64,000 bases of DNA from Ulva prolifera (taxonomy: Eukaryota > Chlorophyta > Ulvophyceae > Ulvales > Ulvaceae), in assembly GCA_023078555.1 (NCBI GenBank), contig CM041197.1, positions 2,390,501 to 2,454,500 on the forward strand, written 5' to 3'. The notes beneath the pieces were generated by a model, which did not search any database, was not told the origin of the DNA, and saw only the letters and a program-made list of their open reading frames with translations. Positions 474 through 58,079 of the stretch are shown in pieces (positions within the stretch are counted from its first letter, which is position 1; each line of letters begins with the position of its first letter). The position numbers and the translations under genes were made by a program.

Positions 474-750
474 CTCGGGGCGGTGTGTGTTACAAGGACA
501 AAGCAAGCGAGGCAGGTAGCACCGCAAGCAAGAACCAGGGGAACCGCACACCACGCCACAAGCCACACGCAGCACACACCAAAACACCCACGCAACGGCG
601 GCACCCGCGCCGGCCACAGCCACACAGCCACACAGCCACACACACGCCAACGCCCACACGTCCACCCCCAACTGAACCCCGCCCACCAGCCAGGCGCACG
701 AGACCCGGAAGCACAAGCAGCCAAGGCCGCCGAGCAAACAAACACTGTGA

Positions 751-774
751 CTGCAACAACATATGTTGTTGCAG
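751..774. repeat. 24-bp perfect palindrome
   Basis: Both strands read CTGCAACAACAT followed by its exact reverse complement, with no spacer. It lies inside retroposon copy 1. Function unknown. Confidence 0.9.
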
Positions 775-956
775 TCTCGCTGGTTTCGCTGGTGTCTTCC
801 CCGTGCACCTGCGGGTGGCCCGCCGTTGGGGCGCGGCCGGGTAGTTTAGGCGGGCTGGGCTGGACTTTGGGGGTTGTGGGTGTGGGTTTGCGGGCCGGCG
901 GGGTGGTGTGCGAGGGCTGGGCTTGGGGGGGGTTGTGCTGGGGGAGGCGGGGGCCT

Positions 957-1000
957 CCCCGGGCCTGGGGTTGCAATGCATTGCAACCCCAGGCCCGGGG
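957..1000. repeat. 44-bp perfect palindrome
   Basis: Two 22-bp arms meet with no spacer at the centre between 978 and 979. The outer sequence is CCCCGGGCCTGGGG and the centre is TTGCAATGCATTGCAA. It lies near the minus-strand 5' end of retroposon copy 1. Confidence 0.9.
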
Positions 1001-1052
1001 ACACTGAGACCGCCGCCACCACAACAAAGCGGACGAAACTCGGGGCGGTGTG

Positions 1053-1568
1053 CATGGATCGAGAGAATGATTATGGTCGTTGAAGACACCTGTGGCGCAT
1101 GACAGCTGCAGCAGTCTGGGGATGCTCAAGCAGAGGTGGCGTTACGAGTTTGAAACAGGCTCATCAGAGACAGGCACCTTTTATGGTGGCCACTAGTCGC
1201 AGCTGCAGCTGCGAAAGCAGCTGCCGAAAGTTCTGAGCACCATGCGGCACCCACAACCACTGACCCCACAATGACGAAAAGGCATGCAAAAACAAATTCA
1301 CTCTGCTCACCAACTGCTAATTATAAGATCATGGTCAGCGTCACGTCAAGGAGCACCTGCATGTTGGCACTGTGGTCCGCAGGACCTGCAGTGCAGGTAA
1401 AGTAAATACCTTTTACGTTAATTTTACAGGACCTGCAGTGCAGGTAGTACACCCTCACAACCTGCGGCATGCACATGTGGGCTCCTGCACGTTTTGATAC
1501 ATTCATTTGACAATTCCGAATCCCCTGCAGGACGTCAGAACGGCGGGCCCCGTGACACGCTCGAGCAC
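1053..1568. other. Non-coding stretch
   Basis: I see no gene or named repeat. A GGACCTGCAGTGCAGGTA motif occurs twice near 1379-1450, separated by an AT-richer segment. Confidence 0.4.
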
Positions 1569-1688
1569 CAGTGTTGGGTCGCCGGGCCCGATCATATGTA
1601 ACAATTTCAAATACTCAGGTACAATTTCTGGGTACCCACCGGCGGCAGCCCTGGAAATGCTGCAAATCGACCCAACACGCTCAAGCAC
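1561..1688 (-). mobile_element. hAT-type MITE copy 1
   Basis: The 112-bp element at 1569-1680 starts CAGTGTTGGGTCG and ends CGACCCAACACGC, so its ends are inverted repeats. It is flanked by TCGAGCAC (1561-1568) and TCAAGCAC (1681-1688), an 8-bp target duplication with one mismatch. The internal signature GGGCCCGATCATATG is inverted relative to copies at 36753 and 16006. Ends of the form CAGTG and 8-bp duplications are hallmarks of the hAT superfamily. It has no coding capacity. Confidence 0.8.
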
Positions 1689-1880
1689 ACTCCCTGCACC
1701 TCACCTTTTGGTATCCAGACAGCTGCACCGCTTACTCAGCCACTCTGGCTCTGCATAATCTGTGCTTCAGGTCGCGGGCCACCGCCCATGCATGCATGGA
1801 CTATGCGTGGCACGCGTGCATGCAGCCCCGTAACAGAGCTCTGCCTGGCCATGGGCTGTACACAGCCCAGACAGAATGAA

Positions 1881-1994
1881 CAGACAGAATGATAGACAGA
1901 ATGAATAGTCTGCCTGAACAGACAGAATGATAGACAGAATGAACAGTCTACCTGAACAGACAGAATGATAGACAGAATGAACAGTCTACCTGAA
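1881..1994. repeat. 38-bp tandem repeat, three units
   Basis: Units at 1881-1918, 1919-1956 and 1957-1994 read CAGACAGAATGATAGACAGA followed by ATGAAYAGTCTRCCTGAA. The second and third units are identical. Confidence 0.9.
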
Positions 1995-2158
1995 TATGTG
2001 TGTCTACCTGAATCTGACTGCAGTTACAAATATGTTTGCATGCATACATGCAGTCGAATGGATGGATGCCTAGGAACGGCCCAGTACCCGGCCTCTCTTC
2101 TTTGTAACTACATGCAGTCAAATACACATGCTCAGGCAGACTGTTCATTCTGTCTATC
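1967..2158. repeat. Long imperfect foldback (inverted repeat)
   Basis: The left arm (about 1967-2030) and right arm (about 2101-2158) are reverse complements apart from small gaps. Shared blocks are GATAGACAGAATGAACAGTCT, CCTGA, ATGTGT, GACTGCA and GTTACAAA. The loop is about 70 bp. The left arm lies partly in the 38-bp tandem array, so the array may have grown from one end of a foldback element. Confidence 0.75.
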
Positions 2159-2301
2159 TACTTAGAAGTTGGACATAGTACTGGTCCGAATCAGTTGCGC
2201 TTCCGGGGGATATCGATGTGGCAGACGGCGTGGCGGGGGCGCAGGTGAGGAGCCCACGGCGGGGGTGGATCGGCGATGCATATGCTGCTGCACGTTCCAG
2301 T

Positions 2302-2509
2302 GTGCTGCGCAGCGGCGCTGCACCCGAAGCCGGGGCATGCCCACTCGCCGCAGTCGGAACGTGTGCTGTGCTGTGCTGCGCTGCTGCACCCGAAGCCGAC
2401 CGGCAGGCCGGCCGGGGCATGCCCACTCGCAGCCGCTGCGCTGGTTTGCGCTGGTTTGTGCTGCCACTCGCTGGTTTGCGCTGCCACTCGCTGGTTTGCG
2501 CTGCCTGCA
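2302..2509. repeat. GC-rich tandem duplications
   Basis: A unit of about 60-75 bp containing CTGCACCCGAAGCCG and GGGGCATGCCCACTCGC occurs twice (about 2302-2360 and 2363-2440). Three 20-bp units GCTGGTTTGYGCTGCCACTC follow at 2450-2469, 2470-2489 and 2490-2509. Open frames here come from the repeats and are not called as genes. Confidence 0.8.
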
Positions 2510-2830
2510 GGCAATCAGCAGTTGTGCATCCTGCAGGGCCTGGGGTGGCCGTAGCGTCGAGACAGCCGTCACTGGGCAGCCAAATGCCGATACATAGGCT
2601 GCCGGCTGGCTTGCCTGAGCACTGGTTCGCATGCATTTTGCCACACCGCTTGCTGAGCAGTACGACTAGTGCATGAATTTGCCATGGCACCAGCCTCTGG
2701 GCGCAAGTGGCTGAGCAAGCTCGAGTGCCCGCCGCTGCATCATGACCATGCATGGTCACGGTGGTGCGCGGTGCGTGCGGCGGCGCATGTGTGCGATTGG
2801 TCGCGCCCAGCCTTAGCTGTGCTGAAAAGC

Positions 2831-2865
2831 GCTGTTCACGAGTTGTGAAATCACTCGTGAACAGC
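2831..2865. repeat. Short inverted repeat
   Basis: Perfect 13-bp arms GCTGTTCACGAGT and ACTCGTGAACAGC are separated by 9 bp. No gene lies next to it. Confidence 0.8.
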
Positions 2866-3679
2866 CCGCACTTTCCATGTGGATGCCAATTGTGAACCCT
2901 GTGAGCTGCATGCACCTTGTACACGCAGCAAAGTAAAGCAGAATCTGGCCAGATTTGCTTTGCTGTAGCCGTAAGTGGACATTGACAGCTCCTTTCCTCA
3001 CATGATTTAATAATTTCGCTAATGTACGGGACCACATCCTGTCCAGTGGCAATTGCCACTGACACTCACTGACAGCTAGTGCTGCAAAATGTGCCCGCCA
3101 TGCATGTCTGCAGACATGTCTAGGCACAGCAGCTGAGCGGCAGATGCCCTGTCCTAGGCCTCACGGAAGTTCTGTAGTGAGCTTCCTTACACACAGACAC
3201 GCTGCAGCCGCGCCGCGCACCCCCCCTGTTTCGTCCGGCGAGACTGAGCAAGACTGAGACCTCTGATCAGGGTGTGACCCGCCGTTATCGCGTTGCATCA
3301 AATACGAGACGGCGCAGTGACGACATGCATGTGCCGAGGCCGCGGGCTCGCACCACGAATTGAAGACAGCTGCAGCGCCGCCGCTGCATGCGCCGCCGTC
3401 GCACCAGCTTCTCGTGACCACTGGTGCACGCCCAATCATAAAAAGGCCGTGCATGGGTCAATCCCGCCAAATGAAAAGCGACCCGACAAACCAGGTCTAC
3501 ACTTCCTCATCTCCATCAGCAGCCCCAGCGGCGGTTCCTTCGGCTCCGGTGTCGGAAGTGAGCATTTTGTCTTGCGTTTTCAAGCTTCCTCGAGCAATCG
3601 ATCGATCATCTGAAGCGACCTCGCCGCGCTAGCTTCACATCTGTGCAGAGCACCCCTCCACGGTAAGAGCTCGTCAGCA

Positions 3680-3904
3680 GTGCGCTCTTTCTTCCGAACT
3701 GCATCAGCGTTCAACTTGCGTCCTGGACACGAGGTAGATATCTACATCGACGCGACGTGGCCGAACCTGCGTTGGAATCTCATGCATGCATACGCGATGT
3801 CGGCAGTTCACACACGTGCCCCGGAGAAGCGCTGGCTCCACTGGATCATGTGGACCAGTGGAAACCGCAATGTCCAGCTGCCGTTTCGTCCTTCCGAGAA
3901 ATAA
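3680..3904 (+). CDS. Possible terminal exon or relic ORF, unidentified
   Basis: This open frame has codon usage like the real exons in the window. It encodes a stretch with HEVDIYIDATWPNLRW and RWLHWIMWTSGNRN and ends in TAA at 3902-3904. It begins with GTG rather than ATG, and AGCAG just upstream could be a splice acceptor, so it may be the last exon of a gene whose other exons I cannot find. No family is recognised. It could also be a decayed transposon ORF or chance. Confidence 0.25.
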   Translation: MRSFFRTASAFNLRPGHEVDIYIDATWPNLRWNLMHAYAMSAVHTRAPEKRWLHWIMWTSGNRNVQLPFRPSEK

Positions 3905-5267: not shown

Positions 5268-8200
5268 GCGCACACACTCGCGATTGCGCTGGCGGTGGCG
5301 GCGGCCGCGCGTGCCGCCGCGCAGGAGGGCCCCTCCGGCACCGACATCCTCAACTTCGCCCTCAACCTTGAGTGCCTCGAGGCCGAGTTCTACTCGTACG
5401 CCGTGTACGGCACCGGCCTCAGCGAGGCGCGACGCGGCGGCGGGCCCCCCGCCGTGGGCGGCCGCAAGGCTAACCTTTCCCCCGAAATTCAGGTACACCT
5501 CCCCCCCATGAAGCAACCTCGACTGTAATGCGTAAGGTTAGTGGTTTGCGTCTTGCATCAGCCCTGATGGTCAGGTTTGCCCCATGACCATTTGAGGGAG
5601 CAAACATATTGTGCATGCCCGATGCATATCGCGACACGCTAGCGCCACGCTGGTGCAGGCAGTCGCAGAGGAGATTGCGGCCGATGAGATCGCGCACGTC
5701 GACTTTCTACGCGCCGCCCTCGGCGACGCCGCTGTGCCATGCCCGGCCATCGACATCGGCGACGCCTTCAAGGCCGCCGCCAACGCCGCCGCCGGCGCCG
5801 AGCTCGACCCCGAGTTTGACCCCTACGCGAACGACGTCTTCTTCCTGCATGGGGCCTTCATCTTTGAGGACGTCGGGGTGACGGCGTACCGAGGCGCCGT
5901 CGAGCCCCTCTCCGGACTCATCGATGGCGGTATGCCCCCGGACCACAGCAATCCCGGCTCGGTGTGTCACATTGTCATGCTGCGCGCTGTGCCAGCTGCA
6001 GCGCAGTTCACATGCATGCTGCCACGTCTCTGCATCGCACACGCCTTGGTCGGCGCAATCATGGCGACCATTCATTCTCCATAGCCCCGCTCACAGCACG
6101 CGTGGTCCTGTAGCCACCCTCTCTGCCGCGGCGGCCATCCTCGCCGTCGAGGCCTACCACGCCGGCGCCATCCGAACGCTCCTCCTCGGCCTTGCCTCCA
6201 AGGGCATCGAGACGCCATTCGGGCCTATCCCAGACGTCGTGCAGCTCATCTCGGACCTCCGAGACGGCGCTGACGGCCCGGACGACCTCGACCAGGGCAT
6301 CCTCACGCCCGGCGGCTACGGCGACCCTGACACCGTCAACATCGTCCCGACCGACGCCAACGGTCTCGTCTACTCGCGCTCCGTCGACCAAGTGCTCGCG
6401 ATCGTCTACCTCGGCGGCGAGGGCTCCGGCGGCTTCCTGCCAGAGGGCGTGACAGGGTTCTTTGGGGCTGGAGCGGCGGAGGTCGCCGCAGCGGCGCCGG
6501 CCGCATGCGAGGGCGTGTGCGAGTACCGTGTGAAGTTTGACATGAGCTGGAGCCCCGAGAACCACCCGACGGACTTCCCAATGGAGCCGATGGGCTTCTT
6601 CGCGCCCTTCTGGACCGTCACCCACGACGACTCGTGCGCCCCCCTGCCTCGTCAGCGGCGCTCCGAAGGGCTGCGTTGTTTGGGTCACCCCGTGTCCTCC
6701 TACTGCAGTGTGTATGCATGTACATGTACGAGTGTCTGTTGCATGCGAAGGAGCACGTTCGCGCTGTGCTGCTGCTGGGTGACGGGAGGGAGCCCCCCTT
6801 ACGTGCATGCTGGCATGTCTGCAAGCTGCACCTGATTGCTGCACCTGATTAGTGCACCTGATTAGTACAGCTGGACCCGGCCCGGCACAGTGTGCATGGT
6901 GCCGAGTGCATGCATGCCCTGCAGGCGCAGCGTCCATGCACGCACTCACATCCCGCCTGGTTTTGTGTGCGCTGCCCGCAACTGTGGCATGGGTGCGCTG
7001 CACCGAATCGGTGGTCGTGTGTGCTCGCGACGCTTGCTGGTTCCGCGGTGCCGCCCACCTCGCCGCCTTCACCCTCGCAACATATGCAGCGCCTGGCGTG
7101 ACAGCGCCTCGCGGTCGCTGCTCCGAGCTGAGTCGCGCCCGTGTGCAGATTCACCCTGTGGCGCCGCGGCGAGACGTCCGCGCCCGGCATCCAGATGATC
7201 GCCGAGACTGGCGCTGGGGATGCCTTCCTGGAGGAGGTCGCGGCCTGCGGCGGCTCCTGCGGCAACCCGTACGAGTTTGTCTGCTCGCCGATGTCCGGTG
7301 TCTGCAGCGGCGAGGGCATGGTGATGGCTGCCCCCGGCTACCCCTACCTCTCCATCGGTGCCATGCTAGCCCCCAGCCCTGACTGGTGCGCCCCCGGACA
7401 GCCATGCAATTCTGCCATGCATTGTATGTAGGCCCCAATATACTTCCGCGCGCGTCTGCGCACAAGGTAGGCATGCGTTTCAGCATGAGCCCATGCAAGC
7501 AGTGACCATGATCACGAATCCACTGAAGTTACACATGCATGCGCCACCGGGGCACCAGTGACCCGTAGCTGGCATCTCCATCAGCACAGGTGTCCTTGTA
7601 TTGTAAGCATGCTTGCATTGTAAGCAGGCGGCATGACACGCCCCGCGTCGTCGGCAGTTTGGACGGCACTGCCACATGCATGCAAACATGTATGTTGACA
7701 GCCCTGAACCAACGACCGAAAGCGTGCTTGTACGGTCGCACGCGAAGCTAACATGTACCGACAGATAGTCTCACAGGCCTGAAGACGGTGTTGTGAGTTC
7801 ATTGGTATGCTGAGTCAGCATTGCTGACGTGGCGGGTCGGGTGCAGGTTCACGGGCGTGGACGCGTGGCCACTGTGCGTGGACGGCGAGTGGGTCAAGGA
7901 GATGTCGCGGCCGGTGGCGGCCTACGATGCCGGCACCGACCTCGGCCCCGGATTCCTCTCGGAGGATATGCCGAACGCCGTCAAATCCGAGATCTTCTCC
8001 TTTGGCGCCGTCGCGCCCCCAGAGGCGTCCGTCTTCTACAACCCCTCCACGTGCGTTGCCCGACCCAGTGCTTCCCGTGTGCAGACCGTCGTTGTGTGCT
8101 GGCCTGGGTCATGACTGCAGGCCACGGCCATCAGTGTGTGCATAGCTGAGTATACCTGCTGTTGTATCGTGGGATGTGATCACCTGCAGGCCAGCAGATT

Positions 8201-10022: not shown

Positions 10023-12337
10023 TTACCACCAGCCCTTCTTGATGTTGCCGAAGCGGAAGGTGAAGAACTTGCCGAACTTCTTCTTCTTGCCCTCGTCATC
10101 GTCCTCGTCATCGTCGCCCTCCAGGTCGTCCTCGGGCTCTGGCACCGGCTCGGGCACCGGCTCCGGCTCCGGCTCGGGCATCGGCTCGGGCATCGGGTCC
10201 GGGATGGGGTCCGGGGTGGGGCCCGGCACACAGAAGTCGTTCTTCTCGATCAGGCCCTCACCGCATGGCTCGCCGACTGCACCACGCGTACCATGCGTGA
10301 GGCCTCATGCATGTGAACACACCACGGCGGGTCCCCCACCACAGCAACGCCCGAAGCCGCGGGTGCGCACGTGAAGCTGGCCACAATATCATCTCTGGCG
10401 AGTTTTCCTCGACGTTTGAGGAACCCTAGAGCATAGTAAAGCATCGAAATGTTCAATGTGTGGCTGTGTGTGTTTGCATATGCGGCCTGGCAGGCACGTG
10501 GCGCGCATGCAAGGGTTCCCTCGCTACTTGAAGCTTGACGCATAGCTCGCACGTTGCAACTATCGTGGAGCCTCAGATGTGCTGAGATTGAACACCCCTC
10601 CAGCAGCGGCGAGCGAGTCGCACCGTCGCACGCGGGCTTGCCGTCAATGCCGCACTCCATGCATGTGCCCTCCCAGCAGCCGACCTTGTCGCCCTCGCAG
10701 TCGCCAATGTTGGGGTTGTTCGCGGGGATGTTGCAGCACGGCAGGCCGAGTGTGCCGCACTCCGGCTCCGGCACCGGCTCCGGCACCGGCTCCGGCACCG
10801 GCTCAGGCACCGGCTCAGGCTCCGGCTGAGGCTCTGGCACTGGCTCCGGCTGCGGCTCCGGGTCGGGCACCGGCGCGGAGCAGATGCCGTCGACCTCAGA
10901 CAGGCCCATGTTGCATGGCGACACGCCGGCCTCGGTGCATGCAGGCTGGCCCTCGGCGCCGCAGGGCGTGCAGACAGCGTCGATGCAGGTGAGGGAGTGC
11001 AGCTTGCAGGCGGCGGCGCCTTCGTCGGTGCAGCAGGCGGTGCCGGCGTCACCGCAGGCGGGTGGCGGGGGTGGGGCGGGAGGCGGGGGCTTGACGCAGA
11101 AGGCGCCCTCCTCGACGAGGTTGCGGTCACACTTGTCTCCGGCTGCACCAACGCCACCCCTGCTGTGAGCACTGGCCATTGATGCCTAGCTGAGGACTGA
11201 GCGCCCTGTGAGATCCACGAAAGCCATGTTTTGACAGCGAAAACCGTGATGCTACACCGACCATCACGCCACAAGAGACTATTCGGCCTCATGCATGGAC
11301 TGCTCCGGGCCTGTGTATGAGAAGCGGTGGCGGGCCGCATTCCATCAATTCCGGGGCCGCCGTGCAGGAATAATACCTGAAGAACTGGGTTTGTTCTATG
11401 TGATCGGGCCCGCCAAACCTACACACATAGAAAGGGGAGGGGGGGGCTCGCACTGGGGCAGGTGGGCTTGTCGAGTTCGCCGCAGGCGACGCAGGTTCCC
11501 ATGACACAGAGCAGGTTCTGCGCCTTGCAGCCGTCGTCGCTGCAGCAGACCTCGCCCTGCTGACCGCAGTCCTCCTCGTGCGACTGCGGAATCGCGACGC
11601 AGAAGTGGTCCTTGTTGACCATCAGGTTGTCCTCCAGGCATGGCGGCCCGACTGCACACCCACTCCACATCCTCAGAGCACTGGATCGCATTCATGGGCT
11701 CGATACAGTGCACATCGCTATCAAAATCATATTTCCTAGCTGATGTTCCTCCGCAAACTCTCTCCTACAGTTCCATAAGGTTCTCGCGCTCATCAAAAGT
11801 GACATGGAAGACACCAAGGTGGCATGGAAGACACCAATCGAGCCAGGCCATACCCCTGGTGCTGCACCAGCCGGTTGTACTGGCATCCACACATGTTACT
11901 GTCACGGTCGCGCGGCTCCGCAGCGAGAGCTTGCCGGGGCCATAAAAGCTGCCAGTGATGCTCAATCACCGCGATGAAACATGCACTACTCTCAGGAAGT
12001 AACCCCATGACATGGGCGACTGCCATGCGCACTAGGTCATCAGCGATGGGATACTATTTGGCTGAACATCAGGGAAGAAGTGCTGCGGAGATGCAGGTAC
12101 GGAGGTGCACTAGTGGCGGAAGCGCTGCAGTGTCGCACCGTTGCAGACGGGCTTGCCGTCCTTGCCGCACTCCATGCAAGTGCCTTCCCAGCAAGAGGAC
12201 TTGGCATCGCAGTCGCCGATGTTGGGGTTGTTGTCGGCGATGTTGCAGCACACGATGCCGAGCTTGCCGCAGTCGCCCGTGGCGGCGACGCCGGCTGCCG
12301 ACAGCAGCGCGGCGACAGCGGCCACCTTGAAATCCAT
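10023..12337 (-). CDS. Secreted cysteine-rich modular protein with Pro/Glu linkers
   Basis: Four exons, 389 residues: 12337-12139, 11651-11454, 11142-10624 and 10276-10023 (TAA at 10025-10023). ATG at 12337 starts a signal peptide (AAVAALLSAAGVAA). Four CG-x2-G-x2-CC modules follow: CGKLGIVCC, CGQQGEVCC, CGDAGTACC and CGTLGLPCC. Each continues to a C-x2-CG...P-x-C end. Shorter C-x(n)-FC units alternate with them (VNKDHFC, VEEGAFC, IEKNDFC). Linkers are PEPVPEP-type repeats; the tail is acidic (GDDDEDDDEGKKKK) and ends NIKKGWW. All three introns are phase 1, sit at the same point of the module and begin GTGCGA. This argues for growth by exon duplication. It is probably a cell-wall or extracellular protein. 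Ligand and family name are unknown. Confidence 0.8.
11322..11428 (+). mobile_element. hAT-type MITE copy 2 (old) in an intron
   Basis: The block TTGTTCTATGTGATCGGGCC and upstream text (CAATTCCGGGGCCGCC) align with the MITE copy at 36753. Both ends are degraded (GCGGTGGCGGGC and ACCTACACAC), so the borders and target duplication are approximate. It lies in intron 2 (11143-11453) of the Cys-rich gene, on the strand opposite to the gene. Confidence 0.65.
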
Positions 12338-15997: not shown

Positions 15998-16114
15998 GTC
16001 CAGAGCATGGTGGGTCGCTTTGCAGCATTTTCAGGGCTGCCATCCAGAAATTAGGCGTAAAGGCTTGGAGTGGATCTATGTGATCGGCCCCGACGACCCA
16101 GTACTGCTCCAGAG
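15998..16114 (+). mobile_element. hAT-type MITE copy 3
   Basis: The 101-bp element at 16006-16106 runs from CATGGTGGGTCGC to CGACCCAGTACTG. It is flanked by GTCCAGAG (15998-16005) and CTCCAGAG (16107-16114), a 7-of-8 target duplication. It shares TTTTCAGGGCTGCCATCCAG and CTATGTGATCGG with the other copies. Confidence 0.8.
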
Positions 16115-16989: not shown

Positions 16990-17123
16990 GATGTCGCTGT
17001 AAGTGTTACATGGATGAAGGCGGTGAGGCGGGCAGCGCCGCGAAACCAGAAAGCAGCTTGAGATCACAACCACCAACCCAGTCCATCACACCTGTGCCCC
17101 AAGATGAACCATGTCGCGGTAAT
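16990..17123 (-). mobile_element. SINE-like retroposon copy with 14-bp duplications
   Basis: The insert at 17004-17109 (106 bp) starts TGTTACATGGATGAAGGCGG on the + strand, which is the family's 3' end read in reverse. Flanks GATGTCGCTGTAAG (16990-17003) and CATGTCGCGGTAAT (17110-17123) match at 11 of 14 positions, as expected for an older copy. Confidence 0.65.
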
Positions 17124-18132: not shown

Positions 18133-18264
18133 CACATATCTCCGAGGTAGCACTTTTTATGTGGAGTGCCGGCTTGCGTTTGCGCTGATTCCCTTGTGGT
18201 GTGCATGGCACCAGCGACGCTACCTGCCTCTCCGACATTATCCTGTAAACCACGTATCACCAGC
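18133..18264 (+). mobile_element. Probable old SINE-like retroposon copy
   Basis: The end at 18205-18250 (CGACGCTACCTGCCTCTCCG then ACATTATCCTGTAAAC) matches the family's 3' end, and GATTCCC lies upstream as in other copies. Candidate 14-bp flanks CACATATCTCCGAG and CACGTATCACCAGC match at 9 of 14, so the 5' border is uncertain. Confidence 0.5.
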
Positions 18265-18289
18265 TCCAAAATCGCACGAATGTGTATAA

Positions 18290-20480: not shown

Positions 20481-20571
20481 CATCCACATATGTGTTTTGA
20501 GGACACAGTCGGAGAGGCAGGTCATATAGCAGGAATCGCACAGTGACAACTCACACCCATCCACACATGTG
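20481..20571 (-). mobile_element. Shortest SINE-like retroposon copy, 63 bp, with 14-bp duplications
   Basis: The insert at 20495-20557 carries only the family's 3' end (minus strand: TGCGATTCCTGC, GACCTGCCTCTCCG, GTGTCCTCAAAA). Flanks CATCCACATATGTG (20481-20494) and CATCCACACATGTG (20558-20571) match at 13 of 14. It shows that the 3' end alone is enough to form a copy. Confidence 0.75.
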
Positions 20572-34118: not shown

Positions 34119-37100
34119 TTGTCATGCAGGACTTCCAGGTCAACGCGCGGGCAGTGGGGCGCCCTCGATGGAGACGTTCTTCACCATGTGTTCGAACATC
34201 TGCAGTCTTTCCCAGGCCAGCTTGCGCATTGCAGGCTCGTGTGTTCCTCCTGGAGGCATGCAGCACAAACATTCCACGGAGCTGAGGCCCGCATTACAGT
34301 CGCAGGCATGCAACTCGAACCTTTAGAGCACCTCCAGTGCCCAGCTGCTGTTATGTTGACCTGCTGACCTTACTTGCCCTGCAGGCGATCTGCTTCAACA
34401 GGCAGTGTCAGACAGGGCCAAGGCATTCCATGATGCCACCTGTGCCATCCTCGATGAAGCTCACCCATCAGGCCTCATGCACAGCCACACATTACAGCCA
34501 AGCAGCTCATCCACGCGACTTCCTGGCCACACGGACACAGCTGATGTGCTCGAGCCGGTGCTGCACTTCCCGTTGCACTGGCCCCCGGTCCCTCCCCAAC
34601 AGCAGCCCGTCAGCATGCCCACAGCCAGTGAGGCTGCCAGGGCTGCCCACACCAGCGCAGACTCCAGCCCTGCATCACTGCTGCAGCAACAGCGGGACCT
34701 GGCGCTGTGGTACAGCTCGCTCGTGGCGCTTGCACCCAGTGAGAGTGCTCGACCACCAGTCTCTCTCAAGACACCGTTGCAGCTGGCAACGCCAGTCTGC
34801 GAAGCCTCGACGAGCCACGCCACGCTGCCCGCGCCTGGCAGGTATGCAGCTGTGGATCAGGCCATCGCGTTTGAGGCCTGCATGCGCAAGGGCACGGCCG
34901 TGGAGCTCGAGGAGGCCCTGCAGCTCCTCGACGTCTCCAAGGCAGACCCAGCCGAGGCAGCTGCACTCCACGCGCTGCAGGTGCGAGCCCACAGCATTAC
35001 TACTTTCCACTCTTCACACTACTGCACCGCTTCTTGCTTCTTCCGCGGTGATGCCCGCCTCGCCACCTCTATCCTTGTAGCTATAGATAGATCTATAGAC
35101 ACACTTCTGCACCGCCGGGCGTCCGCAGCGCTCTGCCTGGGCCTAGCTCAGCTGTGGCGCTGCTCAGGCTGGCGATGCCCTGGTCCACGGGTCCCGGGGT
35201 TTCATCGCAATGTTTGTATTGATGTCAGCGTAATAACGCCATGACCAATTTGCCGTGGTCAGACCTGGGAACCAGAACCAGAATGTGATGTCTGCCAGTC
35301 AGTCAGTCTCGTTGGCCTTGCTGTGCTCATCATCAGCTAGTGACCAGGGATGTCACCAGGACAGTGTCCTGTGAGAAAAGTGTTGTTGACCAGGGCAATA
35401 CTGGCGCTGCCTGGAGGGACACTGTCTGTCCCCCCACATCATCGGAGCAGCAGCCTCACTGTGCCATGCTCGTGCATGCGTGTGGAGCGACACATTGACT
35501 GCATGCGAACGCATGGCATGCATGCGCCGATCGCTGCACAACACTGACAAGATGTGGCCTGCAGGTCGCGATCTCGGCGGCACTGACAGAGTACTCTGCT
35601 GCTGCACAGCTCCCGGCTGCAAAGCGCCGGCGCATGCCCCGCCGGGGGGCGCAGTTTGCGCGCGGCTGCGACGGCGTTCACGCGGCCGCGCCACACGTGC
35701 CGCCGCCTCGTACGCGCTCTACGCCCGGCCGCCGCCGCTCTGCAGCGGACTCACAGCCAGGCACACATGGTGCCGGCACATCCGCCGCTGCCGCCGGCGC
35801 GTCCAGCTCAAAGAAGCGCCGCCGCGCTGGGGGCGGCGGCACGAGTGCGGGCCTGCCTGCCATGGAACCCGGCCGAGCAGACGGGACGGCATCGGCCGTG
35901 AAGGTTCAAGCAGCGATGTGTCCGCCAGGGGAAGTCTTTCCAGATGGGCTGATGTGGGATCCTGAGGAGTACTACAATGCAGACGGGCCGGTGTTCCGGG
36001 CCGCGCGAGGGGGCTCCTTGGCGGGAGCAGGGCCGGGGCCGAGCGGGCGAGCCGGGACGGCCGTCCCGGTGTCGCTGGTCGGGGCTCTCCCGGACGCCGG
36101 AGCGGTGGAGTGCCGGGACGCCGTGCTGCGGGTGGAGTGCAGCCTCGAGGGGCTGGTGCTCGCGGCGCGTGCGATCATGCATGCGCCGATCAGCCGGGCC
36201 GCGCTGCCGCGGCTGAAGAGGGCGTCGAGCGGGAAGGGGGTGGCGAAGGGCCGGGGCGGCGCGGCGAAGGCGGGCGCGGGAGCGCGGGCGGCTCTGCCGG
36301 GTGGCGCGGCGCGCGCGTTGGTCTTCCAGGTGCTGTGCACGCTGCGCGTGATGGGGCGGCTGCAGGAGGCGGTGCGGTGCGCGGTCGGAGGGTCACACAC
36401 CGTGGACATGTCGAGCAGCAGCTCCCTTGGTGCGCAGCTCCCCGCCCACTTGCAATTCTTTGTGGGCGTGCGGAACCGTATTGCTGGTGGCCAGTTACCC
36501 AGTCGCACGATGGACATGCATTTTCCTGGCAGGAGGGGGCTGGAGCAATTGCGCCCACCCCCCATCCCGCTCTGCTGTTTGGCGCCAAGAGGGGGTATTA
36601 CTCGGTGGTGCTCACACGTCCGCGCAGTGAAAACAGTGTCGCAGTGGCTGATTCAACTGCTGGGTCGCGCAAGCGAAGCACTGCTGGTCATTCACACATG
36701 TGCCGCAATCTGAGGCAGCTTGCGTTGAGCCACCGCACCATGCTCCTCGCAGCAGTGTTGGGTTGCTTTGTGGCAATTTCAGGGCTGCCACTCAACAAAA
36801 TTAGACCTGGATATTAGGAATTGTTCTATGTGATCGGGCCCGGTGACCCAACACTGCCTCGCAGTGCCACGCCCCACCTGCAAGCGCTGCAACAACAGCA
36901 CTGTCGACCGATGTCTGACACCGCGTGCACGCCGTGCAGACCCACTGCTCGTTGCGTCCATGCCGGAGCTGCCAGCTGTGCGTGCCCTCACCCTTGGCCA
37001 CATCCGCCTCGTCGACCGCACACCCGTGATCCCCCTCTCGCCCGCGGACCCCCTTTTACAGCCCGGCGCGACCACAGCAACCGCCGCCACGCTCGCGCGC

Positions 37101-41760: not shown

Positions 41761-46109
<4,349 letters not shown>

Positions 46110-46144
46110 ATCTCCAGCGGAGAAAAAGTATTGAGTGCATCGAA

Positions 46145-47997: not shown

Positions 47998-49809
47998 TGG
48001 TTTGTCCGCTGCGCTTCGTGCTCGCGGGCCTGTCGGCGGCAATCGTGCTTTTCCTTGCCGTCGACATGTTATGGCTACAATCCAAGGAAGACATTCACGG
48101 CATCGAGGTGCGAAACCTGTACCACCTCCGTGGATCTGCTGTGTCATGTTTCCGCCCATGCTCATTCTCAACAGGATGCGCTCCATCGGGCACTTCCAAA
48201 TCGTATTTTTCGGCTCTTTTTACACTGAATTTAGGCAAGCACGTGTTTGCAACGTTGTAACGGCTTTCTTGTGCGGGGCGCGTTGGGGGGTGCACAACCG
48301 GTGATCGTCTTGATCTCGGTGAGTACCAATGTCAATGTATCCTCGCGGAACCACTATAACAGGCCATGTACTCCCGCTTTCTCTCACCACGTGCGCCCGT
48401 GATGGCTAATTTGTACAGAGCGTGCAGGATGAAGATGACGTGCCTGACAGCAAAGACAGTCCCGACGGGAAGCAACGGCGGACGAAGCTTCCCATGCCGA
48501 AATCGATACTGGACTGCTTCACAGGCAGATACCTCTTCCAAGTGTATGGAATGTGGAGGCAGGAGGCATCGAGGCAACATGCCATTGCTCAGCAGCATGA
48601 ACACAGCTCGTGAGGGAAACGTAGCCCCTTCAGGCATGACCCACCCAACAGTCTTCCGCAAAGGTGTCGGCCTTTCTTCAAGAACTTGGGGTGATGAGGC
48701 ATACAATGATGCATGCTGGAACTTTCATGGCCAGAATGCGGGTGACCTTCGAAGCGGAATTCCGCTGCAGAACTCTGTACCCCATGGTATGTTTTTTTAA
48801 AGTATGAGGAGCGGGATAGTGGCAGATCTGACAGAGCACTGAGAAATTGCAGTCCATGACGTGCGCTGTTCCATGCGTGATGCAGCTGTAGTGTACCGGA
48901 TGTTCAGACCGGGTATTTTCTAGATAGGCTTTGCCACAGTACATTGCAAAGGTGTTTTCGAGCGGGCTGTTCACTGCCATCGTTTGTAAGTCACAGCCCC
49001 CTCATTCTCGGATTGCCATGGATGCTCAAGAAAACTGTGCGCCACGCACTATGCTCGTGTTTGGATGAAACTGGCCCAATGTCACGACCTCGCATGGTTG
49101 TGCTGACACTGAGGGTCAACATCATGCTGGACAGCACCCTCGCACACACTCTGACGAAACCAACGTCTGGTAGACCTTGCCTGCCGTGCCGACTCACACT
49201 GTCCTCTGCTAAGACGCGATTAGATCGCCACAGCCTTGTGTAGCTGCATGTACTCTTCAGATGCATGCCCATGCATGTACTGGCGTGTGCGTGTGTTACA
49301 AGGACAAAGCAAGAAAGGCAGGTAGCACCGCGAGCAACAACCAGGGGAATCGTACAACACGCAACAAGTCACGCGCAGAACACATCAGCATACCCACGGA
49401 ACGTCAGCACTGGCGCTCACCACAGCCACCCAGCCACACACAAGCCCCCCACACCCCAGCCCCCAAACGGTGTGTATGTGTGCATCATCCTATAGCCGTA
49501 CCAATTGGGACAGTAACAAACCCGGACACTGGGAACAAACAAGGCACTGTAGCCACGTTCTACCGCACAGCTGGCATCACAGAATGCGACAACCTAGACA
49601 TGGCTATGCTGATACAGTACACATTCATACAACCATTCTTTGGCACACAGACAAGTAGGACCAAACGTGCATCTATGCCACCCAAGCTCAATTTTAAACA
49701 CCTGAGGCTCTGGCATGCTGCTGTGGACGTGATACCGACCTTGCGGCCTTTCGGCATGTTTTGTCCGGAAACCGTTAATGAAAAACATGGAACCTCGTGC
49801 ATTCTGTGA
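47998..49809 (+). CDS. Unidentified type II membrane protein, partial exon set
   Basis: ATG 47998 opens PLRFVLAGLSAAIVLFLAVD, a clear signal anchor, then a lumenal-type stretch ending at a GAG|GTGCGA donor (exon 47998-48108). A second exon from about 48428 (DEDDVPDSKDSPDGKQRR) follows in phase after GTGCAG. Later candidates are a frame ending at CATG|GTATGT (about 48787), a segment of about 48997-49169 with LTLRVNIMLDSTLAHTL, and the last exon 49514-49809 with FYRTAGITECDNLDMAMLIQ, FKHLRLWHAAVDVIPTLRPF and a TGA. The last two join in phase (TS|V). The architecture resembles Golgi glycosyl- or sulfotransferases, but I recognise no catalytic motif. The middle exons are unresolved. The last intron carries a retroposon. 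Confidence 0.45.
49280..49480 (-). mobile_element. SINE-like retroposon copy in an intron
   Basis: The insert at 49294-49466 (173 bp) begins TGTTACAAGGACAAAGCAAG on the + strand. It shares its 3' ~100 bp with copy 1, including a box-B-like TGTACGATTCC on the minus strand. Flanks CTGGCGTGTGCGTG (49280-49293) and ACGGTGTGTATGTG (49467-49480) match at 9 of 14, the central differences being transitions. It lies in intron 49170-49513 of the type II membrane protein gene. Confidence 0.7.
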
Positions 49810-50505
49810 GTCACCGTCGGGGACACGACGCAGCAATTCCACATCAACACTGTGAAATCCTGCCCGCCAACAGAAAATGGAGGTGGGTGGGAGGCGAGGG
49901 GCAACCCGTCGCTGAGGCGACACAGCGTATTATCAGTGAGGCACCTGCTGACAGGACCGTGAGTCTGAGAGGGCTGCGTGAGTAATAGGACCGTGTGTCT
50001 ATTATCAAGCCTGCCCAGTCCGCGCGGCTTGCCAGCAGCGTGGCGGTGACACAGACTTACCTGGCGGGCGCGTGGCAGAACGTCAAGGCGAATTCGCACA
50101 CAACATTCAAGAACAGCAGTCCCCCAGAGGCTGTGTCAAACCATGCCATCACATAAGCATCGCTAGCGCAGCCGGGCAAGGCCACCCGTGCGTTTCGTGT
50201 GCAGGAGTGTCAAGCGCGAAGTGGACTCCAGCTGCGCCTCGACGTGGCGTGATGCGCGGAGTCAAAATGATCGGCAGTGGACATGATTGCACGCTTGCAT
50301 GCGTGCCGCGGGGTGCTTGCATGCACAGCAGCGACACCACTGTGGCTCTGTCAGGGTGGAGAGGCAGGCGAGCGCTATCAGGAGCGGCCCAAGGGATCAC
50401 CCTGCCGAACGGCAGTCTCACTCTGAACTGGCGCTATCCAAATGGCCTGCTGTCCGGGGGCTCCCATGGCTGTGCGCTGTACAGAACGGTGCGAGTAGCC
50501 GGGGC

Positions 50506-50531
50506 GGGGGGGGGGGGGGGGGGGGGGGGGG
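50506..50531. repeat. Poly-G tract, 26 nt
   Basis: An uninterrupted run of 26 G, the longest in the window. Confidence 0.9.
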
Positions 50532-50836: not shown

Positions 50837-50957
50837 ATTGGCAACAGTTTTGGGTCGCCTCGCAGATTTTCCAGGGCTGTCATCCAGACATGAGACCAGA
50901 AACCTGTGTGAAACTGTGCTCTGTGATCGGGCCCGCCGTCCTAACGCTAATTGAAAA
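50837..50957 (+). mobile_element. hAT-type MITE copy 5
   Basis: The 105-bp element at 50845-50949 starts CAGTTTTGGGTCGC and ends CCTAACGCTA. Flanks ATTGGCAA (50837-50844) and ATTGAAAA (50950-50957) match at 6 of 8. It shares CCAGGGCTGTCATCCAGA and CTGTGATCGGGCCCG with the family. Confidence 0.7.
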
Positions 50958-51192
50958 GGCCCCAGGGGGCGGGTGCAGGCCAGCAGATGTAGGCTGCTCG
51001 AGATAAGCATGGTCTGAGGGCAGTTCGGTGTCGGCTAGCCACAGCGATGCGCCGAAGGACATATGCGTCCACGCTGCAGCAGTGTACTGTCTGTGCTCTG
51101 CGTGCAGCGACGCACATGTTTGTATGGCTCTTTCAATTGTGTGCATGTGCAGGGAAGGGCATGCCACAGAACATGCACGCACTCCCTTTTGT

Positions 51193-51240
51193 CCTGGTAG
51201 ACCACACACTGACGACCTTCCTGGTAGACCACACACTGAC
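51193..51240. repeat. Short direct repeat
   Basis: CCTGGTAGACCACACACTGA occurs twice with a 27-bp period. Confidence 0.8.
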
Positions 51241-51955: not shown

Positions 51956-54900
51956 ATGGAGCATACAGCGGGGCATGACTTCACGTACAAGCAATACCCG
52001 CAGCGCTGGCGGATGCTTGCAACCGTCTTTTTCGTAAACCTCGTTGTGCAAAATATCTTCATTACTTTTGCTCCTATTGCGACTGCTGCTTCGCAGTATT
52101 ACGGCGTAGACCTGACTGCGATCAACTGGCTAGCACTCGTCTGGCCTGCCATCTTCATCCCAGCAAGCTTTCTATCATCATGGTCGTACCACAAGTACAG
52201 CCTGCGAGCGAATATGCTCGTGGCTGGCATCTTGATGGCCGTGGGAACATGCTTCCGCTTGTTATCACTTGCAGTGCCCGTCGTCGGATTAGACGACCTG
52301 TCGCAGAAGAAGAACCGCGGTGCATACACCCTGGTTATTATTGGGACAATGCTCGTTGCTCTCGTGCAGCCTGTGGTTCTATCCTCTACAACACAAGTCG
52401 CCGCGGCATGGTTCTCAGAGTCACAACGAGGACTCGCGAACACGCTGGTGCGTCCACCTTTCCTCACTCACGCTTTGGCCTGTATGGATGCATGTTGTTA
52501 GAGCGAACGAAGACATTCGTTTGGCAGTCATGTCGTGTCGGCAAAGTCCGCGTCTCTCGTTGACATCGCCGGATGAGCATCCTCAACCTGCATGATCGGG
52601 TCCGTCCAATCGATTCGAGCAGGCCAGTTCTGCTGGACTCTATGTCAAGGAGAGTGATTGTGCCATCTCGCTTCTCCAGTGGATGTGAGCCCTCCACGGT
52701 CATGACTGGTGCAGATTGGGTGTGTGCTATATATATGCTTAAGCACTCACATCAACCAGCTTTGTCGAGCTGGGAAGGTAGGCGCTACCTGCCGCCTGAT
52801 CAAAACATCATTTAAGCTTTGTTCATAAAATCTTGTCACCGCATAGACCTGTTCCGCCAATGTGTTCTCCCGGTGGTAACATGGTAGCCCAACGTTGACA
52901 TGTGATGTGCGCCACAGATGCTGATTGCATACCCTCTCGGATTGGCGACCGGCGCCTTGATCCCTCCAGAGATGGTCAACCACGTGGACGGTCAGGGCAT
53001 CGATGGGCTCCTGCTGCTACAGTTTGCTTTGGCTGCATTTGCAGCCATCATCTGCTTCGGGCTGCAGTCCGCCCCCCCGTCTGCACCTAGCGCAACAGCT
53101 CCATACCGCCGAGGCAATGACAACCTCGGCCGCGACCTCAAATCACTCCGCCGCAACTTTGGCTTCATGACTCTGTGCAACATCTGGGGCCTGTCAGTCG
53201 GCGCCATCCAGGTGCCTTCCCCGCCGCCTCAAGTTACGCTGAGCACAGCATTCACATACCCCAGCACGGACACTGTGACAACATCCAACTGCCTTGCACG
53301 TGCTATGCTCTATCCCACTGCACCGCCAACCCGTCGACATAGCCGACACTCCAGCCCGGCTCGGTGCCCCGCGCCCGAGCTCGTCTGGTGGACATGCCCC
53401 GCAGCAGGAGTTGCAACGCCTCCGTCTCCAGCAGCCTCCCAGGTCTAGGCGGCATCGGGCTCTGCCTGTTACATGCTCTCAGCTCTTGGTGATGTGCAGG
53501 CGCTGCTGGTGCTGCTGCAGCAGATCCTGCACCGCAAGGGCTACTCTCCGCGCGACGCGGGCACGATGGCGGCCCTGCTCATCCTCTGTGGCGTCGTCGG
53601 CGCGAGTGCGCCCCCCCCCCCCTCCCTCCCCCCCTCCACGGCATCCACACAGGCTCAACAGCACCGCCGCTCCCTTATGTTCAACAGACGTGTAAATTTG
53701 GCAGATGTAGCGCTCCAGAGCATCATCCTGGCTTGTCTAACTCATCACGATTCAGCTGCATCGCGATGCATCATTGCTTTCGCAGCCACTCAGAATTGCC
53801 TACATGAACTGCAATCCACACGTGCATCACTCCCTCCCCCTTCCGCCCGTGGGGGCTATGGTAACGGCAGGGTGGTGTATGCAGTGATCGCGGGGCCGCT
53901 GGTGGATCACACGCGGAAGTACAAGCTCATCCTCGCGACGTGCCTCACCCTCGCGCTGCCCTTCATGGTGCTCACCGCGATCGCCTCGCAGCGCAGCGAC
54001 CGCCTCGGCGTGCTGTACACCTGCGGCTCGCTGCTCGGCCTGCTCGCGCTGCCCGTGCTGCCCGTCGCCCTCGACATGTCCGTCGAGATCTCGTACCCTA
54101 TCCCCGCCGGCCTCACCAGCACGATCCTCTGGTTCTGCTCGCATGTGCGCCCACCCCCGCCCTCGCCCGCACCGTTGCTGCGTGACATCAACTCACGTAT
54201 GTTATCCAATTGAACAGAAGCACATTTAGAGATCAGACACCACCTGGCATGGTTGTGCTTCTGCGGGGTCTGCCATAACGCGGGCGCCTGCCTCCCCGTT
54301 CTCGATGGACTGCTGCATGATGCGTAAACGACGGTGGGGTCGGCATCGCCGCCATGCATGCGAGAGCCACGAGTGCAACCTCAGCAGCGCCGTGGGTCGC
54401 GGTCTGTGTCCTGGCGGACACAGGTGTCCATGCATCTGCACATGTGTGCTGTGTATCTGATGAGAGTAGGGACTCCTGTTGTACGTCTGAGGGTTCTAAT
54501 TCAGAAGGTGCACGGCACCGATGCCGCTTCAGAGGCAGAGCCATGGTGGTGCAGGTGACGGCGCTGGTGCTGGTGATTCTGATCGACGGCCCCCTCGCGG
54601 TTGACGATGGGGTCGGGCCTGACAGCCTGCAGGTCGGCACCTGGCTACTCGTTGGCTGCATCGCTGCTGCGACCTTCCTCTCGTGGCTCTGGTCTGGCCG
54701 GTGCGGCCCGACCTCAACCCTGCTGCGGCGGGCATGCATGTAGACACCCCGCAGCCACGTCCGTGCCAGCTTGCGCGTGGAGGTGCGTGTGCAGCGCAGC
54801 TGCCATGCGACTGCATGCCCTGGTGAAGACCACTGCGGGCCGGGCAAGCACTGCCGGCGCGCACAACAAGCGACGCAATGACTGTGGCGATGTGAATCTA

Positions 54901-55395
54901 TGTTACGCTGTTTTACTTGCAATGACCGGGGGCGCTGGGCGGGTGGCGTCCACGACTGTGCGCGACTATCTTCCCTTGTATCTCTTGGGAATGAACGCCC
55001 GTGCGGTTACGGTGGATGGACCGCAGCAGCAATACACCGGCGGGATGCGAGTGCAGCACAGGAGGTGTGGCGCGTGACAGCTAGGTTTTGTTGCCAGCGC
55101 AGTGTTTTGCAGGTACGTGCGGCATGAAGCGGAGGGCACCGTCGACAGGCTGCGGCAAGCCCAGCGGCGTGACCTCGGGGTGCCGTTCGTCGCAACCGTC
55201 ATCGACCACCCGGGGGATACGCCCGCGCAGGGACTGCCTGGTGCCGACAGTGCGGCGCCGCACAGCCCCATGGACAGCGTGCCGGGCGGTGGGGACCTTG
55301 GGAACGCTGCTGCAGTAGCTGCGTATGTGGCCGCAAGTCAGGCGGTGGCTGACGGAGATGAGAGCCCCAAGGCGAACGTGTTTGACCCACAATAA
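51956..55395 (+). CDS. FLVCR-like major facilitator superfamily transporter
   Basis: Six exons, 523 residues: 51956-52447, 52918-53211, 53500-53605, 53885-54144, 54555-54691 and 55113-55395 (TAA). All joins are in phase. The sequence follows the FLVCR/SLC49 pattern: QYPQRWRMLATVFFVN, FAPIATAASQYYGVDLTAIN, WLALVWPAIFIPASFLSSW, LSSTTQVAAAWFSESQRGLA, YPLGLATGALIPPEMV, then IAGPLVDHTRKYKLILA and DMSVEISYPIPAGLTSTIL. Animal relatives move haem, choline or related solutes across membranes; the algal substrate is unknown. About twelve membrane helices are expected, and the C-terminus is hydrophilic (VRHEAEGTVDRLRQAQRRD). The start is the ATG at 51956; an in-frame TTG lies upstream. The fifth donor (GTCTGG) is weak. 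AATAAA overlaps the stop codon, but its use as a poly(A) signal is uncertain. Confidence 0.88.
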
Positions 55396-56350
55396 AGAGC
55401 GCTCGCCCAAGGCCATGCTGTCCAGGTCTGGGGGAGTTGAGAGTCTGGTGTGGTGACAGGGGGACTTTGTGTGTCAAGAGGTCACGCGTGCAATTCTTGA
55501 CCGCCCCCGGGACCTGCCATTGCCATCAATTGAAGCGACAGAAGCTTAGCTGTAGCGATGGTGCAGCACATTTCTCATAACGCTGTTCCGCAAGCCAGGC
55601 ATGTGACCTGAGCATCACCTGCAGTGTCATGGGTGAGGCATGTGACCTGTTTGTAAAACTACAGCTTGCCTGTCTTGCTTCGCCGAGACCCTGCAAGTGC
55701 GGCTTCTGTGCGACAGAGACACAGACTCTGGCAGTGCACGTGCAGGTTCCTGTCCAAGTGACCACCGGAGCTCGCCATGCTGCTTACACAACCAGATGTC
55801 GTCATCTGCACCAGATTGTACCACCTGATCGATGTCAAACACCCCAATGTCAATACAATCGGGCTTCAAAGGCATAGGCACATGCGAATGTTTCCCGGTG
55901 CAATACCTGCGATTCTGATTTCCCCAAGAAAAATGATTCAGTGACCCTCGAGATGAAGTGGGACGTATCGGAAGCAGTGTTGATAGCTGAGAAATTCACA
56001 ATGCCTTTCAAACCACAGATGCTTTCTGAACAGGTCATTTACTTGACTGCATCCCTGATGTGCAACGCAAGTCCACCTGAGATACTGGCCATTGTCTAGC
56101 CATTACCTCAACATATGTGAATCGGGGCCTTGAGCACCCCAACAGTCACGTTGCAGATGTCCAGTTGACACATGATTGATGTCCCTCACAGCAGCTTCTA
56201 TGCACGACGCACACCGTTAACATATTTTCAAGATTACATTGCGTTACTATGTGCACGTCCCTAATGTGTTCCAGCCATGAAAATGGCACAGAAGCTGCTC
56301 ACCGCCGCCATGCATGCCTAGCTCCTGTCATGATGATCACCATGGCTGTC
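55396..56350. other. Intergenic region between convergent genes
   Basis: Nothing recognisable: short overlapping frames only. It separates the + strand transporter from the - strand Ala/Cys-rich gene. Confidence 0.45.
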
Positions 56351-58079
56351 CTAGTCTCTGCAGGTCGAATGTACATGAATCTCGCTGCTTATCTCTGTCA
56401 GAGCAATAATGCCAGCAGATGCTGCCTTGCAGGATCCACTCGCGATGGCCGATGCTGTAGCCTGCAATGTAAAAGAAGTCATCTCTGACACGGTGGCACA
56501 GCACACAAACGTGATTGCGCCAAGACCATGGCGACGCCATTGCAACACCAAGACAACTATAATGGCAGACTGTGGCTGTGGTAGGCGCACCCTGGCAAAT
56601 AGCTCTGCAGAGACAGCCTCGGTGCAAGAATCATATGCAGAGTCTGCCTTTGTACCGTCACCTGCACACTGATATCCAGTTGAGCCGCCAGGCAACTGTG
56701 CCTAAAGGCTACAAAAATAACCATAGAGCGGTGAACATAGACCCATCTCAGCAGCGAGGGCGCTGACAAGGAGTCAAAGACATGTTGCTCACCTTTGAGA
56801 CAGACTTCAACATCGACACTGGCAGTGGCTGAGGTGCTTAGCTCTACAAACACACTGCTGCTTGCATACCCAGCTGCCCATGTCGACACAGATTCTTCCT
56901 CACAATTGCAATGCTCAACTGCAGCCTTAGCAACGGCTTCAACATGCAGATGCATTGAAGACTTGGCGAATGCAGTGGTGCTCGTCTCGACTGCAAAGCA
57001 TTCCTCCCGGGTATTGTATGGGTTTGCGCTCCTCCTTTCACATTCAATGCTAGCTTGTGCCACTGCCTGCAAAAATCTGGGAGCAATTGTACTGTGATTC
57101 CAGTGATGGCCAGTGTTAGTGCTGTGTGTTACAAGGACAAAGGCAGCAAGTCGGGCAGCACCGCGAAAGGAGCAAGCAGACGAAGCAAACACCAAGACAC
57201 CCACGAACATCTCACCCATCACCGGCGCAGCAAGCGACACAGACCCGCAGACCGCCAAGCACACACCCACACACCAGCACACACACGCACAGACCCACAC
57301 ACCCACAAACCCAAACCCACACACGCGCACGCACAAACCCCACGGCCGACACACAACACCACAACCACCAGCACCACAACGCCCGCCGCCGTACGACAGG
57401 GCCAAACCCAACACACTGCTGCCTGAGGCCGCCCATCATGGCCGCCCGATTGCCGGGGGCCGCCCTGTGTTAGTGCTGTGTACGGTGGAGAATATGAGCA
57501 CATCAAGCAGTCCCAGGAAAGTGAGCGCTTGCCTCGGAAACAGCATACAGGCTGCCACCACTGTAGTACTGTGAAATAGAAGTGAGGTCTGGAGAGGCAT
57601 CCTTGCAGGCGTACTTTACTGCGTCCGCAACTGCAGTCCAGATTTTGGTTCAGCTTGCTGGCACATTTACCGAGTACAGGCACATCGCAGCTAGCTCCAA
57701 TGCAGTCGATAGCCACTGGTGCTGGGTGGGACCAGTTTTCAGGAGTAGCGTGTCCTGAGTCGGCTGATGCAGTGATATGAAAAGGCCGCAGTGTGTGAGA
57801 GTATGGCACACCAGCTTTGAGGTACACCGGTGGAGGGTCAACCCACTGTCCTAAGCTTTCTCCATACACTGTTTTTGTGCATGTCACAATTGATGTGTCC
57901 TCGATGGGCGACAGCACCAATTCCCATGCCTGCTGCTCGAGTGGGTCCCTGTCCTCTCGGAATTTGCCCATTTGCACAGGTACGAAGAAGTCATTAATGT
58001 TGAAGGCGGCCACTGTTGCCAGCTGCAACAGCATGCAGGCCACACTCCCAGAGAGGACTTTGCTCTTGAGAGGAGTCAT
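56351..58079 (-). CDS. Secreted Ala/Cys-rich repeat protein
   Basis: Five exons, 317 residues: 58079-57671, 57630-57542, 57066-56793, 56661-56591 and 56461-56351 (stop). ATG 58079 opens a signal peptide (VLSGSVACMLLQLATVAAF). The first exon is a globular part with HATPENWSHPAPVAIDCIGA. The later exons encode Ala-rich helical units punctuated by Cys: VADAVKYACKDAS, AVAQASIECERRS, VEAVAKAAVEHCNCEE and [15 protein letters not shown], between Ser/Thr/Ala spacers. Such A-x-A-x-A/Cys repeats occur in secreted proteins of some green algae; their function is unknown to me. Splice phases agree throughout, but the first intron would be only 40 nt and the second donor (GTTTCC) is weak. A 340-bp retroposon lies in intron 2 (57067-57541). 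Confidence 0.65.
57113..57480 (-). mobile_element. SINE-like retroposon copy with perfect 14-bp duplications
   Basis: The insert at 57127-57466 (340 bp) begins TGTTACAAGGACAAAGGCAG on the + strand and is CA-rich inside. The perfect direct repeat GTGTTAGTGCTGTG flanks it at 57113-57126 and 57467-57480. It sits in an intron of the Ala/Cys-rich gene, in the same transcriptional direction as that gene. Confidence 0.8.

Follow-up and report, generated by a model that had tools for sequence, protein, structure and literature searches.

We have analysed a 64,000-nucleotide stretch of the genome of the green alga Ulva prolifera (C2:2390501-2454500, hereafter the window) together with the assembly to which it belongs (88.9 Mb in 44 contigs), in which chlorophyll a/b-binding proteins (PF00504) gave 38 matches. 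A preliminary description of the window had recognised a family resembling short interspersed elements (SINEs), with six copies at 488-1038, 17004-17109, 18147-18250, 20495-20557, 49294-49466 and 57127-57466 that have a 3' end of ca. 45 bp in common. These repeats are very probably 3' fragments of a non-LTR (long terminal repeat) retrotransposon, i.e., a long interspersed element (LINE), of the R2 type and with a preference for CA at its target. The apparent SINE family has turned into a well-supported LINE, and it illustrates that strongly truncated LINEs can be mistaken for SINEs.

The common end was borne out at the scale of the whole genome. A scan with a 36-mer motif of the end, allowing up to three mismatches, found 812 places (418 and 394 by strand) vs. 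none for the reversed motif used as control, and the exact last 16 bases of the end occur 1377 times (704 and 673 by strand; control 0). The copies sit on both strands and in many places (those listed are on contigs C1-C5), with high identity between them over the last 36-40 bases. A set of 18 diverse ends could be aligned, on GCGGTGCTACC...TCCTTGTAACA (alignment A4), and the letters of the six copies named above were examined on both strands.

The first eight copies (L001-L008) have this 3' end in common and are of unequal lengths. Two of them, L004 and L006, extend past 600 bp, and L006 contains a coding tail with its stop codon, upstream of an untranslated region (UTR) of ca. 560 bp. A genome search with this C-terminal tail, for which the best 150 of 1476 candidates were scored, gave open frames of up to 1531-1556 amino acids (aa) among the matches scored. 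One of the loci, L075, is a whole element of ca. 5.4 kb, with a single open reading frame of 1535 aa (L075:1589-6193) and a 3' UTR of ca. 560 bp ending in ...CTTTGTCCTTGTAACT. It is flanked by a target duplication (14/14 at a distance of 5442 bp; exact length 21 bp). L074 is a sister element with a frame of 1531 aa and a very long CA tract after its end. The 3' UTRs of these two are alignable only in their last 41 columns, which are 83% identical (E 1e-5 or better). This conservation at the level of the letters, with the rest of the 3' UTR diverged between the two subfamilies, suggests that the end may act as a recognition signal. Target-primed reverse transcription by a partner LINE carrying the same end had been proposed for these repeats, and the finding of such a LINE in the genome supports it.

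As for the protein, Pfam matches of both L075 and L074 were limited to reverse transcriptase (RT; RVT_1) and zinc fingers, all below the cut-off, and no apurinic/apyrimidinic (AP)-type endonuclease was listed for either (E up to 1). In the PDB, nothing but R2 proteins matched at E up to 1: three for the whole L075 frame (best E 2e-5), three for its RT part (7e-6) and two for L074 (9e-4). A motif scan of both frames located a pair of C2H2-like fingers at the N-terminus, the RT active site as CHDD, and then CCHC and RHN. The same scan picked out the motif-like letters RGDI, GDV and KRDKY near the C-terminus, which may be catalytic residues of a nuclease. This region is preceded by a long Pro/Ala-rich linker, and the L075 frame probably carries, to judge from its sequence, a restriction-like nuclease. 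Rows L047, L065 and L068 of protein alignment A1, being partly non-LINE protein, were omitted from alignments A2 and A3. No relatives of the LINE protein were found in one scan of viral contigs. Within the genome, the RT search listed 121 matches, including groups at ca. 40-43% identity with frames mostly of ca. 1197-1208 aa. Five pairs of relatives lie on the same strand ca. 4.1-4.3 kb apart (C1:4493038/4497294, C1:9394746/9399034, C1:11189232/11193502, C2:10601433/10605624 and C3:1731096/1735232), with an RT identity of 42% and frames of ca. 1193-1202 aa, which suggests head-to-tail LINE arrays.

The short copies are 5'-truncated 3' pieces of this LINE and not SINEs, because their 5' ends scatter and their inserts are collinear with the LINE. 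To describe them we used 28 exact-end copies (L001-L008 and L076-L095, the first 28 listed of the 812 places, the window's own left out), all of which align to the LINE 3' end. A duplication was obtained in 24, of which 23 have inserts that are collinear LINE sequence over 88-100% of their length (at least 95% in 21, with L078 at 90% and L086 at 88%); the duplications of L004 and L083 rest on only 9 exact bases. The inserts of the 24 copies measure from 69 to 982 bp (median ca. 168 bp), with no common 5' start, a pattern with which the copies at 488-1038, 49294-49466 and 57127-57466 of the window are consistent. Inversions were observed in two copies. In L064, the tract from -1373 to -166 is inverted and followed by -70 to -2 in sense, and in the copy at 488-1038 an inverted piece (-458 to -270), with palindromes at its bounds, precedes the sense end. 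An inverted 5' part is the expected product of twin priming during target-primed reverse transcription, as is known for L1. Coordinates on contig C4 (C4:359610:-/C4:360186:+ and C4:412408:-/C4:412984:+) suggest two more inversions. The variable 5' parts mentioned in the preliminary description are truncation points in one LINE, in part inversions and in part older subfamilies.

It is unlikely that a true SINE family mobilised in trans by this LINE accounts for the copies. There are precedents in the pairs of SINEX with RandI or L1 in Chlamydomonas and in the SINE-like partners of restriction-like endonuclease (RLE)-type LINEs in Entamoeba (PMC3747384), and the LINE/SINE pairs of Chlamydomonas have common ends (PMC3747384, PMC8226300). 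Most of our copies are short, and in the subfamily of the copy at 17004, 11 of the 33 non-self matches start at query base 18-19, which could represent a common 5' end. However, this cluster can also be an alignment edge, since four of the 11 stop at 92-93 as well, where the 17004 query departs from the family end. The 3' tail is indeed common to the short copies and the LINE, yet these copies are themselves LINE sequence, with 5' ends scattered along it. A SINE with a 5' head derived from a gene of RNA polymerase III was considered and, the 17004 subfamily apart, discarded on the same scatter, and because searches of the window with ARAGORN and Rfam brought up neither a tRNA nor another known RNA and Rfam gave zero matches in the LINE 3' UTR. 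The word resembling a box B, previously read as a hint of tRNA ancestry, belongs to the LINE's own 3' UTR: L004, L006 and L075 read GTGTGCGGTTCCCC or GTGTGCGTTTCCCC there, ca. 60 bp from the end.

The target duplications had been described as exactly 14 bp in every case, a length that turned out to be imposed. We collected 61 ends, of which 56 were left after dropping identical ones; 35 passed the rule of at least 9 exact bases or 12/14, and leaving aside two copies within pure CA repeats brought the number to 33 (L044 and L050, which repeat the loci of L006 and L075, were omitted). Exact forward duplications measured 9-30 bp in 32 of the 33, the lower bound being fixed by the rule itself, and 12-14 bp in 16; the remaining copy gave 3 bp owing to an early mismatch. 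Among the 28 exact-end copies, 19 had a 14-mer flank match of at least 12, vs. 18 of 756 decoys. The duplications proposed in the window held up in part: those at 488-1038 and 57127-57466 (14/14 each) and 20495-20557 (13/14) stand and the 11/14 pair at 17004 is plausible, but the 9/14 pairs at 18147 and 49294 are of decoy size, as the same match arises in 614 of 756 decoys (free search over 700 unrelated bases).

CA comes directly after the end in all 28 copies and after 1126 of the 1377 exact ends, a dinucleotide that makes up ca. 9% of those in the window, and the CAC noticed earlier at the start of the duplications is an expression of this target preference. At the pre-insertion sites of the 33 copies, we found C at -2 in 26, A at -1 in 27, C at 0 in all 33 and A at +1 in 31, the preference fading rightward. 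Where the left flank is TG (e.g., 488-1038 and L075) the end is still AACA or AACT, and therefore the last bases derive from the RNA of the element; with CA left flanks its boundary can be placed only to within 2-3 bases. Microhomology at the 5' junction (at least 3 matching bases in 6 of 19 usable junctions, none in 8) is suggestive only and inseparable from the duplication length. That the LINE is strictly specific for (CA)n microsatellites, in the manner of the (TG)n-specific Togen of fish (PMC4640811), is very improbable. L074 was found within a very long CA tract and L047, L053 and L054 within CA repeats, but only 22 of the 1377 exact ends precede 6 or more CA units, and after the end 13 of the 28 copies continue as CACA and 15 as CA with other letters. 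The LINE has a CA-dinucleotide target preference, not a strict array specificity. Finally, there is virtually no chance that a conserved exon or RNA gene explains the common end, a reading that the identity of its last bases might evoke, given copies flanked by duplications, on both strands and in many places, with the same terminal base, forming part of a LINE UTR and with no Rfam match.

Two places with several ends were also noticed. At C1:1803768-1803900 one strand carries four exact LINE 3' ends with 39-bp spacing, and the LINE end itself seems to have turned into a small tandem repeat. In L005, ca. 700 bp (ca. 1467-2174) hold four LINE ends that differ in kind and lie on both strands, an insertion cluster that perhaps arose through each insertion leaving a new CACA target.

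Building on what was observed (the LINE, its shared end, the truncation, two inversions, the duplications and the CA preference), we propose the following course of events. The LINE protein, the product of a single long frame, would bind the last ca. 40 nucleotides of its own RNA and nick one strand at a CA-containing site (TG on the bottom strand), presumably with its restriction-like nuclease. The terminal ...AACA of the RNA would then adjoin, or pair with, the TG end of the nicked strand, and the RNA, starting at its 3' end, would be copied into the chromosome. This process would mostly stop early, so that most copies retain the 3' UTR only; an occasional second priming on the other strand would produce an inverted 5' part, and staggered nicks the duplications of ca. 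9-30 bp. We would tentatively go one step further, to a possibility that we hold with rather less than even confidence: this algal R2-type LINE may have swapped gene-specific targeting for a homology-guided landing on nearly any CA, with CA at the RNA end, TG at the nicked target end and only the last ca. 40 nucleotides kept constant while the remainder of the 3' UTR turns over between subfamilies. If this pairing model is true, it offers a concrete way for an R2-type protein to work without a fixed gene target. In any case, the 1377 exact ends are a large natural set of insertions for looking at how reverse transcription starts in an R2-type element of low specificity.

Several observations weigh against this picture. 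Four of the 28 exact-end copies have no duplication, the one of L079, in CA repeats, is false (the sole exception of the 24), and 251 of the 1377 exact ends are without CA after them. The palindromic junctions of 488-1038 go beyond simple twin priming. Blastn of the copies at 17004, 18147 and 20495 against the LINE gave zero matches, their link being the end motif only (alignment A4); 18147 and 20495 are joined to the family by that motif alone, and the 17004 subfamily yielded no LINE of its own. No conserved hairpin or covariation was supported in the end: RNAalifold predicted zero pairs on the 18 ends, and three structures drawn by hand were not clearly above shuffles and were outscored each time by a control slid by -3. 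The nuclease, for its part, is putative. Its usual motif letters are PD where this LINE reads RGD, the C-terminus had zero matches in Pfam and PDB, and neither had a profile of 12 own-genome C-terminus rows (alignment A2) against PDB. AlphaFold models built with 12 own-genome rows were unusable, both for the C-terminus (453 aa; mean predicted local distance difference test, pLDDT, of 37) and for the RT plus C-terminus (996 aa; mean pLDDT 31).

The R2 group (R2, R4, NeSL/Utopia, HERO and CRE) has the same RT affinity as our LINE, whose PDB matches are to R2 only. The layout described for Utopia, a single frame with N-terminal zinc fingers, central RT and a C-terminal zinc knuckle plus nuclease region (PMC4640811), is matched as well at the level of motifs, with a putative nuclease. 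Loose targeting alone is not new, because R2-group LINEs without a specific target (HEROFr, HEROTn, HERODr, EhRLE3 and YURECi; PMC3636483) and others inserting in microsatellites (Dong, PMC3636483; HERO, PMC4640811) have been described. Togen, Dong and HERO have a CA/TG target likewise, whereas the LINE here is satisfied by CA or CACA and appears to differ from the R2 group by this dinucleotide preference and the long Pro/Ala-rich linker, its nuclease being putative. Dualen has a second nuclease resembling PD-(D/E)XK enzymes (PMC3636483). Dualen/RandI and L1/Zepp are algal LINEs too, but ours has a different 3' end and no poly(A), and it does not belong to Dualen/RandI, which combine AP-type and restriction-like nucleases, as no AP-type domain was listed for its frame. 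For algal RTEX families, (CTTGTAA)n and (CA)n are tabulated as repeats at the 3' end (PMC3747384). These recall the ...CTTGTAACA(CA) of the LINE here, a lead only. RTEX is defined by its position in the RT tree and by an AP-type nuclease. As far as the excerpts of the literature searched show, what is new is a LINE of the R2 type that prefers CA and keeps its end conserved in two subfamilies with an otherwise diverged 3' UTR, and no description of this LINE, its CA-dinucleotide form or its algal host was found in them, which is not proof of absence. It is a known kind of element and, within the reach of our searches, a new family.

Within the window, the preliminary description held that the copies shared little besides the end, which is wrong for the younger ones. 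The copy at 488-1038 (minus strand) is a LINE 3' end that is 5'-truncated and internally inverted. Its sense part, the last 273 bp, is 90% identical to the L075 3' UTR over 272 columns and its inverse part 92% over 191, and it lies between the duplications at 474-487 (CTCGGGGCGGTGTG) and 1039-1052. The 5'-truncated LINE 3' end at 49294-49466 (minus strand) is 78% identical to L075 over 181 columns, with CA-rich flanks, and both copies have zero mismatches to the scan motif. A third truncated copy, at 57127-57466 (minus strand), is flanked by 57113-57126 (GTGTTAGTGCTGTG) and 57467-57480 and is 68% identical to the L075 UTR over 201 columns; it probably belongs to another subfamily, with blastn matches to L075 at E 1e-6 and to the 17004 copy at E 2e-7.

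The other copies look older. That at 17004-17109 (minus strand, flanks 16990-17003 and 17110-17123) represents a diverged subfamily with 33 further genomic matches at 75-91% identity, and the repeat finder gave it 70% identity over 43 ungapped bases. Weak, old end-like sequences are found at 18147-18250 (plus strand), with one other genomic match, and at 20495-20557 (minus strand, flanks 20481-20494 and 20558-20571; repeat-finder identity 63% over 43 ungapped bases). We also found two old places absent from the preliminary description. A copy at 6983-7082 (plus strand) matches that at 17004 with 72% identity over 100 columns and has no convincing duplication (best 9/14), and an old 3' end at 35046-35082 (plus strand) has 7 mismatches to the scan motif and, when a duplication was sought, none (best 7/14). 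A relic of the LINE RT region lies at 50337-50422 (minus strand), its DNA 76-77% identical to L075 and L074 over 69-72 columns.

Elsewhere in the genome, of five loci around the hits of a first RT search (PF00078; best 150 of 452 candidates), two (three proteins) were scanned as LINE candidates and discarded, both being Ty3-type LTR elements. They have long open frames (L042:2616-6686 and L039:952-6035), and in the one in L042 a PHD finger separates RNase H from integrase. The window also includes a 38-bp tandem repeat in three copies (1877-2158), with an inverted partner at 2112-2158. Another repeat, of ca. 104 bp, is found at 36753-36856 and near 1569-1682, 11328-11425, 16008-16105 and 50847-50948. 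It carries inverted repeats at its termini (CAGTGTTGGG...CCCAACACTG), and the copy at 36753-36856 shows an 8-bp duplication without mismatch (CCTCGCAG); the repeat returned 41 matches, itself included, with 677 first-look candidates genome-wide, and looks like a miniature inverted-repeat transposable element of what we presume to be the hAT type.

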